Assembly (NCBI GenBank): GCA_018268455.1 | Contig: JAFDWM010000015.1 | Coordinates: 1-43,300 of the forward strand | Direction: 5' to 3' | Source of the DNA: Actinomycetota bacterium | Lineage (GTDB): Bacteria > Actinomycetota > Actinomycetes > Actinomycetales > Microbacteriaceae | Length of the DNA: 43,300 nucleotides | In this document: piece by piece, positions 405-4,167 of the stretch | How positions within the stretch are numbered: the stretch's first letter is position 1 | How the letters are laid out: every line of letters starts with the position of its first letter | Notes under the pieces: generated by a model | What the model was told of the DNA's origin: nothing | Database searches by the model: none | What the model saw: only the letters and a program-made list of their open reading frames with translations | Made by a program: the position numbers and the translations under genes

Positions 405-1271
405 TCAGTCGATCCGCACGTCCAGGCCGAGATCGAGCGCCCGCGCGGAGTGCGTGAGTGCGCCGACGGAGATCACGTCGACCCCCGTCGCGGCGATGTC
501 GCGCACGGTGTCGAGGTTCACGCCGCCGGAGGCCTCGGCCGTCGCACGTCCGTCGATCAGCGCGACGCCCGCGCGCAGGTCATCGAGGGAGAAGTTGTCC
601 AGCAGCACGGTGTGCGCACCGCCGTCGAGCACGGCCGGGATCTGATCGAGCCGGTCGACCTCGACGACGACGTGCGTCGTGTGCGGGAGCGTGGCGATCG
701 CCGCACGCAGCGCCGTGGCCACGTCCTGACCTCCGCGGGTGAGCACGGCCAGGTGGTTGTCCTTCGCCATCACCGCGTCCGAGAGCGAGAACCGGTGGTT
801 GCGCCCGCCGCCTGCCGTCACGGCATGCCGCTCGAAGGCACGCAGCCCGGGTGTCGTCTTGCGGGTGTCGGCGATGCGGACGCGCTTGCCGTCGGGACCG
901 GCGCCGTCGATGGCGGCCACGTAGGCGGCGGTGAGGGTCGCGATGCCGCTCAGCCGCTGGGTGAAGTTGAGGGCCACGCGCTCGGCGGTGAGCACGCCGC
1001 GGGCGGGGCCGGTCACCGTCGCGAGCACGTCGCCGGAGGCGAACGCGTCACCGTCCGCGACGTGCAGGTCGACGACGATCTGCGGATCCGTGAGCGCGAA
1101 CGCCGCGGCGAACACGTCGCTGCCGGCGAGCACGCCCGCCTCGCGGGCGACGAGATCAGCGGTCGCGGTGGCGTCCGCCGGCAGCAGTGCGGTGCTGGTC
1201 AGATCGCCCCAGGGCGCATCCTCCTCGAGGGCGGCCGTGACGACGCGGTTCAGGACGGCGGGGGTGAGCAT
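405..1271 (-). CDS. nadC: Nicotinate-nucleotide pyrophosphorylase (carboxylating), quinolinate phosphoribosyltransferase
   Basis: This 288-residue protein converts quinolinate and PRPP to nicotinate mononucleotide, CO2 and pyrophosphate, the last step of the de novo pathway encoded here. Family marks are EEDAPWGDLTS (residues 16-26), TRKTTPGLR (137-145), the GGGRNHRFSLSDAVMAKDNH segment (154-173) that carries the basic quinolinate/PRPP contacts and the active-site lysine, VEVDRLDQ, and LLDNFS. The length is normal for NadC. The ATG is chosen because it overlaps the nadB stop by one base (TGATG) and begins a full-length NadC; the same frame stays open far upstream, but that extension is antisense noise inside nadB. 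Translation is probably coupled to nadB. Confidence 0.97.
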   Translation of the reverse strand: MLTPAVLNRVVTAALEEDAPWGDLTSTALLPADATATADLVAREAGVLAGSDVFAAAFALTDPQIVVDLHVADGDAFASGDVLATVTGPARGVLTAERVALNFTQRLSGIATLTAAYVAAIDGAGPDGKRVRIADTRKTTPGLRAFERHAVTAGGGRNHRFSLSDAVMAKDNHLAVLTRGGQDVATALRAAIATLPHTTHVVVEVDRLDQIPAVLDGGAHTVLLDNFSLDDLRAGVALIDGRATAEASGGVNLDTVRDIAATGVDVISVGALTHSARALDLGLDVRID

Positions 1272-2848
1272 CAGACTCCGATCAGGGCGGGGGATTCGAG
1301 ATGGTGGGCGCCGATCGAGACCGGGCGGGCGAGGGTGGCGGTGATCATCGCCTCGGCGACCTCCAGCAGATTGCGGTCCTCGAGGTCGGAGAGGTGCAGG
1401 CCGGGATCCAGGACAGCCGGATCCGCCCGCCATGCCCGCACGATCGCGCGCGCCTCGGTGAGACCCTCGACGGTGCGGACCGGCCCGACGCGGTCCCACA
1501 GGAGCTCCTGCAGCGCGGCGCGGGTGAACGGCCGAGGCGCCCCAACTTCGGAGCCGGCGGGCGACACGCCGGGTTCGGCGGAGCCGGTGGCGGCGTGTCG
1601 CGGTCCAGCTCCGAAGATGGGCGCCGTTGGGCCGGTGATCCGGGGTGCGACAGGCCAGGGCAGGAGCAGCGCGGCGGCCGCGCGCGCGCCGAACACCACA
1701 CCCTCGAGGAGCGAGTTGGAGGCGAGGCGGTTCGCGCCGTGCACCCCGGTGCGGGCGGTCTCGCCGACCGCGTACAGACCGGGCAGCGAGCTGCGTCCGT
1801 CGGCGTCGGTGACGATGCCGCCCATCAGGTAGTGCGCGGCGGGCGTGACCGGGATCGGCTCGCGGGCCCAGTCGAAGCCGCGCTCGTGAGTGACCCGGTC
1901 GATCGTCGGAAAGCGCCGGGCGAGACGCTCCGGGCTCCATCCCGGCCGCGTGCACAGCACGCTCGCGTCGAGTCGCACGGGGGATCCCTGCTCCCGCGCG
2001 CACCGGACGACCGCGCGGGTGACGACGTCGCGCGGCGCGAGCTCGCCGTCGGGGTGGGCATCGAAGGCGAAACGGCGGCCCTCGTCGTCGATGAGGATCG
2101 CCCCCTCGCCGCGTACCGCCTCGGAGATCAGGAAGGCGGATCCGGGTGCGTCCAGGATCGTCGGATGGAACTGCACGAACTCCAGGTCCGCGACCGCCGC
2201 ACCCGCCCGCAGCGCCGCGGCGATCCCGTCGCCCGTGCACACGGCGGGCGCGGTCGTATGCCGGAACAGCTGCCCCGCCCCGCCGGTGGCGAGGATCACC
2301 GCATCGGCCTCGAGATCGGTCATCCGGCCGTCTGTGAGCACCCGGGCACCGCGCACCGCCCGCCCGGACGGGGAACGCGAGACGAGCAGATCCACCAGCG
2401 TCGTGTGCTCGTGCACCCCGATCCCGCTGTCACGCACGGCGCGCACGAGCGCCGCGGAGATCGCAGCCCCGGTGGCGTCACCACCGGCGTGCGCGATCCG
2501 TGCGGCGGAGTGCGCTGCCTCCAGCCCGCGCAGCAGCCGCCCGTCCGGATCGCGGTCGAACGGCACCCCGCGCGCGACGAGCTCGGCGATGCGCTCGTCC
2601 GCGCCCGCCACCAGCACCGCCACCGTCGACGGATCCGAGAGCCCGGCCCCCGCGATGAGCGTGTCCTCGGCGTGCTTGGCGGGGGAGTCGCCTGGGCCGT
2701 ACACGCCTGCGATACCGCCCTGGGCGAGCGCGGTGGCGCCGTCGCCGAGCACGTCCTTGACGACGAGCTCGACGCGATGCCCCGCCTCGTGTGCGTGCAG
2801 CGCCGCGGTGAGACCCGCGATGCCGCCGCCGACGACGAGGACGTCCAT
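1271..2848 (-). CDS. nadB: L-aspartate oxidase
   Basis: This 525-residue FAD enzyme oxidises L-aspartate to iminoaspartate, the substrate of NadA. The N terminus has the dinucleotide-binding motif VVGGGIAGLTAAL (residues 4-16), followed by GDGATALAQGGIA, the HSAARIAHAGGDATG segment, and HPTILDAPG. HYLMGGIVTDADGRSSLPGLYAVGE and ARTGVHGANRLASNSLLEGVVFG are standard for the succinate dehydrogenase/aspartate oxidase family. The C-terminal helical domain follows a Gly/Pro/Ala-rich linker at about residues 400-440. The DNA of that linker is a long nested palindrome (1536-1625) read through in frame, described separately. The gene overlaps nadA and nadC by one base each. The fold and flanks look intact, so I expect an active enzyme. 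Confidence 0.96.
   Translation of the reverse strand: MDVLVVGGGIAGLTAALHAHEAGHRVELVVKDVLGDGATALAQGGIAGVYGPGDSPAKHAEDTLIAGAGLSDPSTVAVLVAGADERIAELVARGVPFDRDPDGRLLRGLEAAHSAARIAHAGGDATGAAISAALVRAVRDSGIGVHEHTTLVDLLVSRSPSGRAVRGARVLTDGRMTDLEADAVILATGGAGQLFRHTTAPAVCTGDGIAAALRAGAAVADLEFVQFHPTILDAPGSAFLISEAVRGEGAILIDDEGRRFAFDAHPDGELAPRDVVTRAVVRCAREQGSPVRLDASVLCTRPGWSPERLARRFPTIDRVTHERGFDWAREPIPVTPAAHYLMGGIVTDADGRSSLPGLYAVGETARTGVHGANRLASNSLLEGVVFGARAAAALLLPWPVAPRITGPTAPIFGAGPRHAATGSAEPGVSPAGSEVGAPRPFTRAALQELLWDRVGPVRTVEGLTEARAIVRAWRADPAVLDPGLHLSDLEDRNLLEVAEAMITATLARPVSIGAHHLESPALIGV
1536..1625. repeat. Nested palindrome inside nadB, in frame
   Basis: Three successive arm pairs are arranged around one centre. 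GGCGCCC (1536-1542) pairs with GGGCGCC (1619-1625). CTTCGGAGC (1546-1554) pairs with GCTCCGAAG (1608-1616). GCGACACGCCG (1561-1571) pairs with CGGCGTGTCGC (1591-1601). Short unmatched stretches separate them, and the 19-base centre is GC-rich. The block adds about 30 codons (nadB residues 408-438) between the FAD-domain end and the helical domain, with no stop or frame change. It looks like a palindromic element tolerated in a linker; insertion as the origin is inference. Confidence 0.75.
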
Positions 2849-4167
2849 CAGCCGACCGTCCCGGCTCCGGCGGGGGAGGACGCGGGCCTGGCCGCGAGCA
2901 TCCGCTCGAGTGCCACACGCGCCGGATCGGCCACGTCCGCCGACACCGTGATGCGGTTCGGGGTGCGGCCGGCGACGAGCTCCTCGAGCACCCAGGCGAG
3001 GTAGCCGGGGTGGATCCGGTACATCGTCGAGCAGGGGCAGACGACGGGATCGAGGCAGAAGATCTCGTGCTGCGGATACTGCGCGGCCAGGCGGCGGACG
3101 AGGTTGATCTCAGTGCCGATCGCGAAGGTCGCAGGCGTGGGCGCGGCATCGATGGCCTTGCGGATGTAGTCGGTGGATCCGGCCTCGTCCGCGGCGTCGA
3201 CGACCTCCATCGGGCACTCCGGATGCACGATCACGCGCACTCCGGGATGAGCGGCGCGGGCCTGATCGATCTGCGCGACCGTGAAGCGGCGGTGCACCGA
3301 GCAGAATCCGTGCCACAGGATGACGCGCGACTGCTCCAGCTCATCGGCGGTCGAGCCACCCAGCGAGGCGCGCGGGTTCCACATCGGCATCTGCGTGAGC
3401 GGCACACCCATCGCCTTCGCGGTGTTGCGGCCGAGGTGCTGGTCGGGGAAGAACAGCACCCGACGCCCGCGGGCGAAGGCCCACTCCAGCACGGTGCGCG
3501 CATTCGACGAGGTGCACACGATCCCGCCGTGCCGCCCGACGAAGCCCTTGATGGCGGCGGAGGAGTTCATGTAGGTGACCGGGATCACGGGCACGAGGCC
3601 GTCGCCATCCGGCTGGTCGAGCGGGCCGAAGACCTCGGCGAGCTGCTCCCAGCACTCCTCGACCTGATCGATCGAGGCCATGTCCGCCATCGAGCAGCCG
3701 GCGGCGAGGTTCGGCAGGATCACGGCCTGATCGGCGCCGGAGAGCAGATCGGCGGTCTCGGCCATGAAGTGCACGCCGCAGAACACGATCGCCTCGGCCT
3801 CGGGATGCTGCCTCGCGAAGCCGGCGAGCTGGAACGAGTCGCCGACGTAGTCGGCGTGCTGCACGACCTCCTCGCGCTGGTAGAAGTGCCCCAGGATCAC
3901 CGCGCGGTCGCCGAGAGTCTCCTTGGCGGCGCGGATCCGGTCGTGCAGCTCCTCCTCGGAGGCCTCGCGGTACACGGCCGGGAGTTCGCCCTGACGCGGT
4001 GATCCGGTCGGGATCACGTCGCCCATCGAGGATCCGGGACCGTAGCCGGGGACGGTGTCGAAGTTCCATGGCCCCGCGGCGAGGTCGGTGGCGCAGGTCT
4101 CCTCGGTGGAGGAGCCGGTGACGATCAGGCGAAGGGCGTGGTCGACGGACGGATCGATGACGGTCAT
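2848..4167 (-). CDS. nadA: Quinolinate synthase NadA
   Basis: This 439-residue cytosolic enzyme condenses iminoaspartate with dihydroxyacetone phosphate to give quinolinate, using a [4Fe-4S] cluster. Visible family marks are ILGHFYQREEVVQHADYVGDS (about residues 91-111), FCGVHFMAETADLLS (129-143), GCSMADM with a conserved cysteine at 158, TYMNSSAAIKG (198-208), VCTSSNA with a cysteine at 218, FFPDQHLGRNTA, VHPECP, and CPCSTMYRI near residue 377 for the third cluster ligand. It has about 75 more N-terminal residues than the short (roughly 350-residue) NadA proteins. The ATG overlaps the nrtR stop as ATGA, and the stop overlaps the nadB start, so this is the second gene of the operon. Confidence 0.97.
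   Translation of the reverse strand: MTVIDPSVDHALRLIVTGSSTEETCATDLAAGPWNFDTVPGYGPGSSMGDVIPTGSPRQGELPAVYREASEEELHDRIRAAKETLGDRAVILGHFYQREEVVQHADYVGDSFQLAGFARQHPEAEAIVFCGVHFMAETADLLSGADQAVILPNLAAGCSMADMASIDQVEECWEQLAEVFGPLDQPDGDGLVPVIPVTYMNSSAAIKGFVGRHGGIVCTSSNARTVLEWAFARGRRVLFFPDQHLGRNTAKAMGVPLTQMPMWNPRASLGGSTADELEQSRVILWHGFCSVHRRFTVAQIDQARAAHPGVRVIVHPECPMEVVDAADEAGSTDYIRKAIDAAPTPATFAIGTEINLVRRLAAQYPQHEIFCLDPVVCPCSTMYRIHPGYLAWVLEELVAGRTPNRITVSADVADPARVALERMLAARPASSPAGAGTVG

Follow-up and report, generated by a model that had tools for sequence, protein, structure and literature searches.

A dispersed four-box palindrome read in frame within nadB of a Microbacteriaceae bacterium, and a wHTH-DUF559 nuclease as its candidate partner

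The window (the whole 43.3-kb stretch of DNA that was analysed) carries on its reverse strand nadB, and within this gene lies a nested palindrome, the only one returned by a generic two-stem palindrome scan of the window. The three arm pairs listed in the initial annotation are present exactly as described, and all pair perfectly: an outer pair of 7 nt (GGCGCCC, 1536–1542 and 1619–1625), a second of 9 nt (CTTCGGAGC, 1546–1554 and 1608–1616) and an inner pair of 11 nt (GCGACACGCCG, 1561–1571 and 1591–1601). Taken as a single inverted repeat, the palindrome has 31-nt arms that are 84% complementary. The predicted RNA folding energy is -90.5 kcal/mol (z -5.8), whereas dinucleotide shuffles average -68.6 +/- 3.8, and 0 of 200 shuffles fold as well; together with 39 genomic copies, this agrees with the earlier judgement that the pairing is not due to chance. 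The features of the locus are as follows.

1271–2848, reverse strand: nadB (L-aspartate oxidase), the host gene of the palindrome; ORF of 525 aa with Pfam FAD_binding_2 and Succ_DH_flav_C domains
1536–1625, no strand: whole palindrome as first noted, including a local GGCGCC arm extension (arm pairing, fold energy)
1541–1621, no strand: family element, 81 bp or 27 codons (comparison of 39 genomic copies)
1541–1554, forward strand: box A (CCCAACTTCGGAGC), the dialect box (copy comparison)
1555–1561, no strand: 7-nt spacer, variable and unpaired (copy comparison)
1562–1571, forward strand: box B (CGACACGCCG), nearly constant across the genomes seen (copy comparison)
1572–1590, no strand: 19-nt centre, variable (copy comparison)
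1591–1600, reverse strand: box B', inverted copy of box B (copy comparison, arm check)
1601–1607, no strand: second 7-nt spacer, variable (copy comparison, arm check)
1608–1621, reverse strand: box A', inverted, with one mismatch, CCCATCTTCGGAGC (copy comparison, arm check)

The nadB frame stays open across the palindrome, and the 81-bp element encodes residues 410–436 of NadB (27 codons), between FAD_binding_2 (residues 2–380) and Succ_DH_flav_C (443–516); the Pfam boundaries thus agree with the proposed in-frame position between the FAD and helical domains. The inter-domain segment is 106 aa here, and is shorter (86–100 aa) in 28 of 29 relatives (the 30 top-ranked loci from 38 genomes, with that of the source genome removed; the nearest is 70% identical). 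Alignment to these relatives, none of them close, found the palindrome-encoded residues in none of the 29. The suggestion that about 30 codons had been added stands in so far as the stretch is missing from all relatives compared, but the net excess over the shorter linkers is just 6–20 aa. As this is less than 27 codons, the ancestral linker may be partly gone. The one relative with a longer linker (L108, from genome G022; 112 aa) carries an internal repeat of another kind, GPRSL(S/H)D.

A search of the source genome (3.6 Mb in 310 contigs) with the element gave matches at about 40 places, in most cases on both strands. From these, 39 copies were listed, one of them degenerate, so that the search for the same arms elsewhere, proposed in the initial annotation, was positive. 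Comparison of the copies gives the layout A(14)-N7-B(10)-N18/19-B'-N7-A', 80 or 81 bp in all, in which the boxes are conserved and the spacers free; the consensus in this genome is CCCAACTTCGGAGC-N7-CGACACGCCG-N18/19 followed by the inverse. The 14-mer CCCAACTTCGGAGC occurs without mismatch 64 times in the genome, always within listed copies. All 86 measured copies (39 from this genome and 47 from others) are 80 or 81 bp long, by a measurement that would have accepted about 72–86 bp; eight of 55 copies in other genomes were not measurable end to end and were left out of the lengths. Copies are often found in arrays of two to five, about 150–255 bp apart with the flanking DNA included.

Pairing between the 7-nt spacers is at or below the level seen when arms are shuffled between copies, and box mutations in a single arm are not compensated in the opposite arm. 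RNA structure as the selected trait of the element was rejected on these counts. Since the boxes are fixed as sequence and in geometry while the spacers are unpaired, recognition by a protein fits better than RNA pairing. Rfam gave no match to the palindrome in positions 1200–2000 of the window, nor in the 16 of 20 loci of this genome that were covered.

Copy positions were classified with a simple codon-model gene caller. The 39 copies of the source genome comprise 13 between convergent genes, 10 between tandem genes, five between divergent genes, six unclassified at contig ends and five within genes, one of the latter being the degenerate copy, in a penicillin amidase gene. Among 55 copies in ten other genomes, 21 are convergent, 20 tandem, two divergent, nine unclassified, two intragenic and one at an edge. 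Across genomes, most copies lie directly 3' of stop codons. The in-frame copies of the source genome are in nadB, pabAB (two copies) and pfkB. Those in the pabA-pabB-like fusion stand 174 nt, or 58 codons, from each other in the region that joins the GATase and component I domains, and the pfkB copy splits the domain match. In Microbacterium algeriense an in-frame copy lies between the middle and C-terminal domains of a TPP enzyme, and in strain A20 one lies in cofD, beyond the matched portion of the domain. The initial annotation had likened the nadB palindrome to Rickettsia palindromic elements (RPEs), and the likeness in behaviour holds, this being a repeated palindromic element read in frame within a coding gene. 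On average 4.9 of the six reading frames are open across an element, compared with 4.2 for 302 other intergenic 83-mers of the same genome and 3.5 for shuffled elements. Palindromes also lie inside called genes at L166:2469–2549 (G021; gene 1806–3569) and L171:2256–2335 (G192; gene 1993–2976). The chorismate-binding half of the pabA-pabB-like fusion itself (L010:1279–3810, contig C277) also contains PLAAAD repeated in tandem and in frame.

The element is spread through the genus. The pattern AACTTCGGAG-N8-CGACACGCCG matches 53 stretches, which belong to ten named genomes (nine Microbacterium and one Microbacteriaceae), and each of the ten has 5–45 half-sites at three or fewer mismatches, against 0–2 for reversed-pattern controls. 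In a looser search of 198 genomes of the genus, 135 had at least one match and 47 had at least six half-sites; a genome with one or two matches does not exceed the level of some controls. The exact pattern of the source genome has 0 matches in the 197 other genomes, and the notion of a species-specific element was rejected, the looser search showing this to be an effect of dialect. Box A is genome-specific (AACTGCGGCG in G162, AACTGCGGGG in G192, AACGTCGGAG in G021 and AACTTCGGAGAT in M. algeriense), and box B stays near CGACACGCCG throughout genomes with differing box A. Viral contigs searched with the exact pattern, and plasmids and phages searched in distant mode with the window's own sequence, yielded no copy of the element.

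Some gene junctions hold copies in several species; one is shared by M. algeriense, Leaf159, MYb54 and LCT-H2 and another by M. algeriense and A20. C5 of the source genome and M. algeriense locus L070 have genes in common on one side of the copy, and each copy is in the dialect of its own genome. Among orthologous junctions, 15 pairs are occupied in both genomes, 22 in one only and 47 in neither, so occupancy is not universal; at least five of the rows scored as one only are detection failures, M. algeriense L053 and PS02344 L055 holding a copy by the exact pattern. As many copies lie at the same junction between species, movement would be slow at best. Alignments of empty sites reveal no clean insertion boundary and no target duplication. 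In M. galbinum (L062, after 6595), where M. algeriense and A20 hold a copy, there is a different short palindrome, TTCGACAGGCTCAGC...GAGCCTGTCGAAG.

The Y1_Tnp domain of RAYT transposases (PF01797) was found in none of 30 genomes of the genus, 19 of them chosen as rich in copies, nor in the source genome; the same search gave matches in six of 14 control genomes. The search for a partner gene covered 20 stretches with closely spaced copies, in which nine genes enclosed by two palindrome groups were scanned. Four of these encode DUF559/MTES_1575 proteins, two GNAT proteins, two 2'-5' RNA ligase-like proteins, and the ninth, a short frame, matched nothing. The four DUF559/MTES_1575 genes come from four species (G192, G162, G021 and M. 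algeriense). In the 280-aa protein of G192, the N-terminus is AbiEi-like and DUF559 forms the C-terminus. PF13338 (AbiEi_4) scores 17.3, 16.4 and 24.9 against a cut-off of 25 bits, and the best PADLOC AbiEi match has an E-value of 1.6e-6. PF04480 is above cut-off in the L162, L164, L165, L167 and L212 proteins and is unreported for the L098 protein; some nuclease-domain matches fall under the Pfam cut-offs. We take the DUF559 domain to be a Vsr-like nuclease, and the assignment of its motif is likewise our assumption. Residues E182, D209, E219, D221, H226 and D235 are 99–100% conserved in 98 proteins; conservation of such catalytic-type residues suggests that the wHTH-DUF559 nuclease is probably active. 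In the middle domain, the residues at 66, 86, 106 and 131 (L162:2767–3606), namely C, H, H and C, hardly vary across the 98 proteins. These could form a metal site, in the part of the protein that co-varies with box A.

The G192 protein was searched against the 198 genomes, and matches were placed in score bands, which are not proven clades: high-scoring (at least 240 bits), paralogue (170–240 bits) and distant (below 170 bits). A flank was counted as a strong palindrome if a centre had at least 24 of 34 symmetric pairs. Control flanks were positive in 19 of 196 cases (at least 150 nt noncoding) or 42 of 880 (all flanks), rates that are lowered by leaving out control flanks in which a family copy had been recognised before. 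Of the 30 best-ranked nuclease genes, 18 have a strong palindrome flank and 12 have none above the threshold. With the two seed genomes removed, 21 of 56 flanks of the remaining 28 genes are strong palindromes (P = 4e-6 against 19/196), and 18 of 50 are so when three more genomes previously seen to be flanked are taken out (P = 2e-5). The bias extends to 20 lower-scoring paralogues, whose loci were hand-picked without sight of their flanks (24 of 40; P = 3e-11 against 19/196), and is seen again in 28 genes from an order-wide search (20 of 56; P = 1e-5 against 19/196). A further 19 loci (L214–L232) were hand-picked from the next 29 ranks, including G078, G129 and G105, already seen to be flanked. 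As the pooled figure of 37 of 88 flanks includes these three, the conclusions rest on the 30 best by rank, a rank-only count that gave weaker flank statistics for the best-ranked genes and left the likelihoods given below for recognition and propagation as they were. Three duplicates (L233, L257 and L262) were removed. Two homologues on Tsukamurella plasmids have no strong flanking palindrome (scores 22, 22, 20 and 19).

Compared by eye in ten genomes, the palindromes beside nuclease genes share the dialect of the dispersed copies. A high-scoring gene is present in 34 of the 47 genomes with at least six half-sites and in 24 of the 151 others (P = 1e-12). In the fetched flanks of 49 loci (the 30 best by rank and the 19 hand-picked next ones), the nuclease gene has at least one of a pstB-like and a pabC-like neighbour in 34, both in 29 and neither in 15; these names, for an ABC ATPase and a class IV aminotransferase with computed Pfam domains, are presumed. 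Palindromes beside paralogues have other boxes, with A similar to B, for example CCCGATCTGCTG or GACGGATCACGG. The source genome has a DUF559 paralogue of its own, on contig C275, between two identical 79-bp palindromes (L212:4–82 and 1004–1082) with boxes TCACGATCTGCACA and TCACGATCAGCACA.

Recognition of the palindrome by this protein is supported most strongly by co-variation between box A and the protein sequence. Box A types cluster on the protein tree (TGCAAGG, CTTCGGA, GGCGGA/TGCGG, GAATCGGA and GTCnnGCGGA). Among the 21 loci compared, box A distance correlates with distance in the wHTH (r 0.44) and middle (0.47) parts, against 0.06 for the nuclease part and 0.14 for pstB DNA, the stand-in for species distance. 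Given pstB, partial correlations are 0.42, 0.46 and -0.01 for the wHTH, middle and nuclease parts (P = 0.0005, 0.0005 and 0.49; 2000 permutations). The nuclease part varies enough to carry a signal (sd 0.08 vs 0.09) and follows pstB (0.47). When loci are left out one at a time, the difference between wHTH and nuclease remains 0.34–0.42, and across all 30 loci r is 0.36, 0.37 and 0.05 for the three parts; both sets are limited to loci with readable palindrome arms. In 30-aa windows, r is 0.12 to 0.49 up to residue 180 and -0.09 to 0.12 from residue 181.

The cognate nuclease gene of the source genome was not found in the assembly at E 1e-15 or better. Three homologues reach this level, the best being a paralogue with a different palindrome. 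The genome's pstB runs off the edge of contig C280 at residue 245 of 259, indicating that the assembly breaks at the commonest site of the nuclease gene. Seven of 34 genomes with at least ten half-sites have no match to the gene with an E-value of 1e-71 or lower, namely the source genome and G001, G141, G143, G149, G166 and G196. Palindromes can thus persist alone, or another mover exists. G149, a single contig, has 36 half-sites and no high-scoring nuclease gene, a case in which palindromes outlive the gene or manage without it. Conversely, 24 genomes have a high-scoring gene and fewer than six half-sites; the pattern fits only some dialects.

It is fairly probable, on this evidence, that the palindrome in nadB belongs, as a non-autonomous member, to a dispersed family whose trans-acting partner is the wHTH-DUF559 nuclease. 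Recognition of the palindrome by this protein appears likely from the comparisons of sequence; the enzyme may also propagate the palindromes, a proposal for which the chances are about even. The AbiEi-like wHTH and the middle domain would read box A, the nuclease part would sit on the nearly constant box B, and the enzyme would act as a dimer on the symmetric site of about 80 bp. Less certainly, it may nick or cut the palindrome, conceivably in the form of an extruded hairpin, and subsequent repair may occasionally copy the palindrome elsewhere or amplify it in tandem; duplication by cutting and repair would also account for the tandem arrays. Copies would persist where they cause little damage, either past a stop codon or, as in nadB, within an inter-domain linker whose frame they keep, and boxes that leave most reading frames open may help in-frame survival.

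Other explanations may be considered. It is somewhat unlikely that the palindromes are operators of a regulon, in which the wHTH protein would be a repressor autoregulated through its flanking palindromes like AbiEi, the dispersed copies further sites and the nuclease domain incidental. The AbiEi-like N-terminus, the co-variation of wHTH and box A, and the description of AbiEi-type antitoxins as binding inverted repeats at their own promoter (PMC7319586) would suit such a scheme. However, few of the classified intergenic copies are divergent (five of 28 in the source genome, two of 43 elsewhere), and most copies lie 3' of stop codons; palindromes also occur downstream of the nuclease gene and within coding sequences, and the catalytic-type residues are invariant. 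Alternatively, the palindromes could be MITE-like, relics of or moved by another enzyme, with DUF559 genes merely gathering them as neighbours. This is quite unlikely, because the flank bias reaches paralogues with different palindromes, including that on C275, and the order-wide set, and because the co-variation is specific to the wHTH. It would nevertheless explain the seven genomes with at least ten half-sites and no high-scoring gene, the GNAT and 2'-5' RNA ligase-like genes also enclosed by palindromes, and the lack of a strong palindrome at 12 of the 30 best-ranked genes.

A family of bidirectional terminators or mRNA 3' hairpins, kept for RNA structure, might be expected after stop codons and between convergent genes and to fold as stably as is predicted here. 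It is very unlikely in view of the spacers, which pair at or below chance, the uncompensated one-arm mutations and the conservation of box sequence over pairing; the in-frame copies in genes and the lack of an Rfam match in positions 1200–2000 of the window and in 16 of 20 loci also speak against it. The linker length of NadB does vary among relatives, as a plain long linker or a chance inverted repeat would allow, but with 39 genomic copies of the same boxes the probability of this is practically negligible.

The preferred reading, a palindrome family served by the nuclease, is best described as a pair that may work like a REPtron while failing two defining REP/RAYT features. In accounts of the REP/REPIN system, short inverted repeats with a variable inner part are present many times per genome at 3' intergenic sites, and the RAYT gene is bordered by the same palindromes and co-evolves with them (PMC3116915, PMC8266576, PMC3733652). 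The inverted doublet, the variable inner spacer and the 3' intergenic location are all found here, as is, in part of the loci, a dedicated, co-evolving, repeat-bordered gene, here a non-homologous DUF559 gene. In contrast to REPIN/RAYT, there is no Y1/HUH transposase (30 of 30 genomes of the genus), and no conserved GTAG foot in the CCCAACTTCGGAGC/CACAACTTCGGAGA consensus or in the other dialects seen; the architecture is an 80-bp arrangement of four boxes at fixed spacing, and the enzyme combines a wHTH with a DUF559 nuclease. More broadly, and with the case for and against about equal, an order-wide class of bacterial repeat and enzyme could exist, in which DUF559 nucleases serve four-box palindromes as RAYTs serve REPs. 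Each paralogue would have its own family, box A would be rewritten as the wHTH evolves, giving private dialects, and in-frame entry would lengthen linkers. If true, palindrome insertion would explain the origin of long linkers such as that of this NadB, and the natural pairs of dialect and enzyme at some 30 loci would offer a ready-made binding code.

Rickettsia RPEs can lie in frame inside protein genes, a habit shared by the present palindromes (nadB, pabAB twice and pfkB; the TPP enzyme and cofD). The CGTC-REPs, described as including RPE-4 and RPE-6, have a CGTC tag, an 8–9 bp stem and a 4–5 nt loop (PMC3733652). The present elements differ in having no CGTC tag, box pairs of 14 and 10 bp and a centre of 18/19 nt; their likeness to RPEs is one of behaviour. 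In the same account the CGTC-REPs are reported without a dedicated transposase (PMC3733652), while a candidate partner gene exists for the Microbacterium palindromes. The present study proposes a partner enzyme, unrelated and testable, for the Microbacterium palindromes.

The nuclease resembles EDxHD homing endonucleases in being tethered to DNA-binding parts, and DUF559 may belong with the Vsr-like nucleases as they do. It differs in that it was not seen in an intron or intein and is often flanked by, and matched to, dispersed chromosomal palindromes. One EDxHD enzyme, I-Bth0305I, is described as forming a dimer on a target almost 60 bp long (PMC3943268). The wHTH-like N-terminus recalls AbiEi, which is described as binding inverted repeats (PMC7319586), but here the wHTH is fused to a nuclease and the usual neighbours are pstB-like and pabC-like genes. 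Judged by listings, one open-licence library contained no report of such a palindrome family in Microbacterium or of DUF559 linked with palindromes. No paper there names DUF559 together with AbiEi, and of two that mention both DUF559 and palindromes, neither has a title on the present topic.

The R box of an integron attC site has the form RYYYAAC...GTTRRRY. A reading of the element as attC-like was dropped since, while CCCAAC of the source genome fits in part, CACAAC, CAGAAT, GTCCTG and GATGCAA of other dialects break the R-box rule.

The loci of the source genome are also rich in GGATCC (3.57 per kb, against 0.14–0.51 per kb in the other locus groups counted). Most other groups, G162 excepted, are instead rich in GGATGC/GCATCC, at about 2–3 per kb. 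GGATCC is thus a heavily repeated palindrome in this genome, and the iterated motif is not the same from one species to another.
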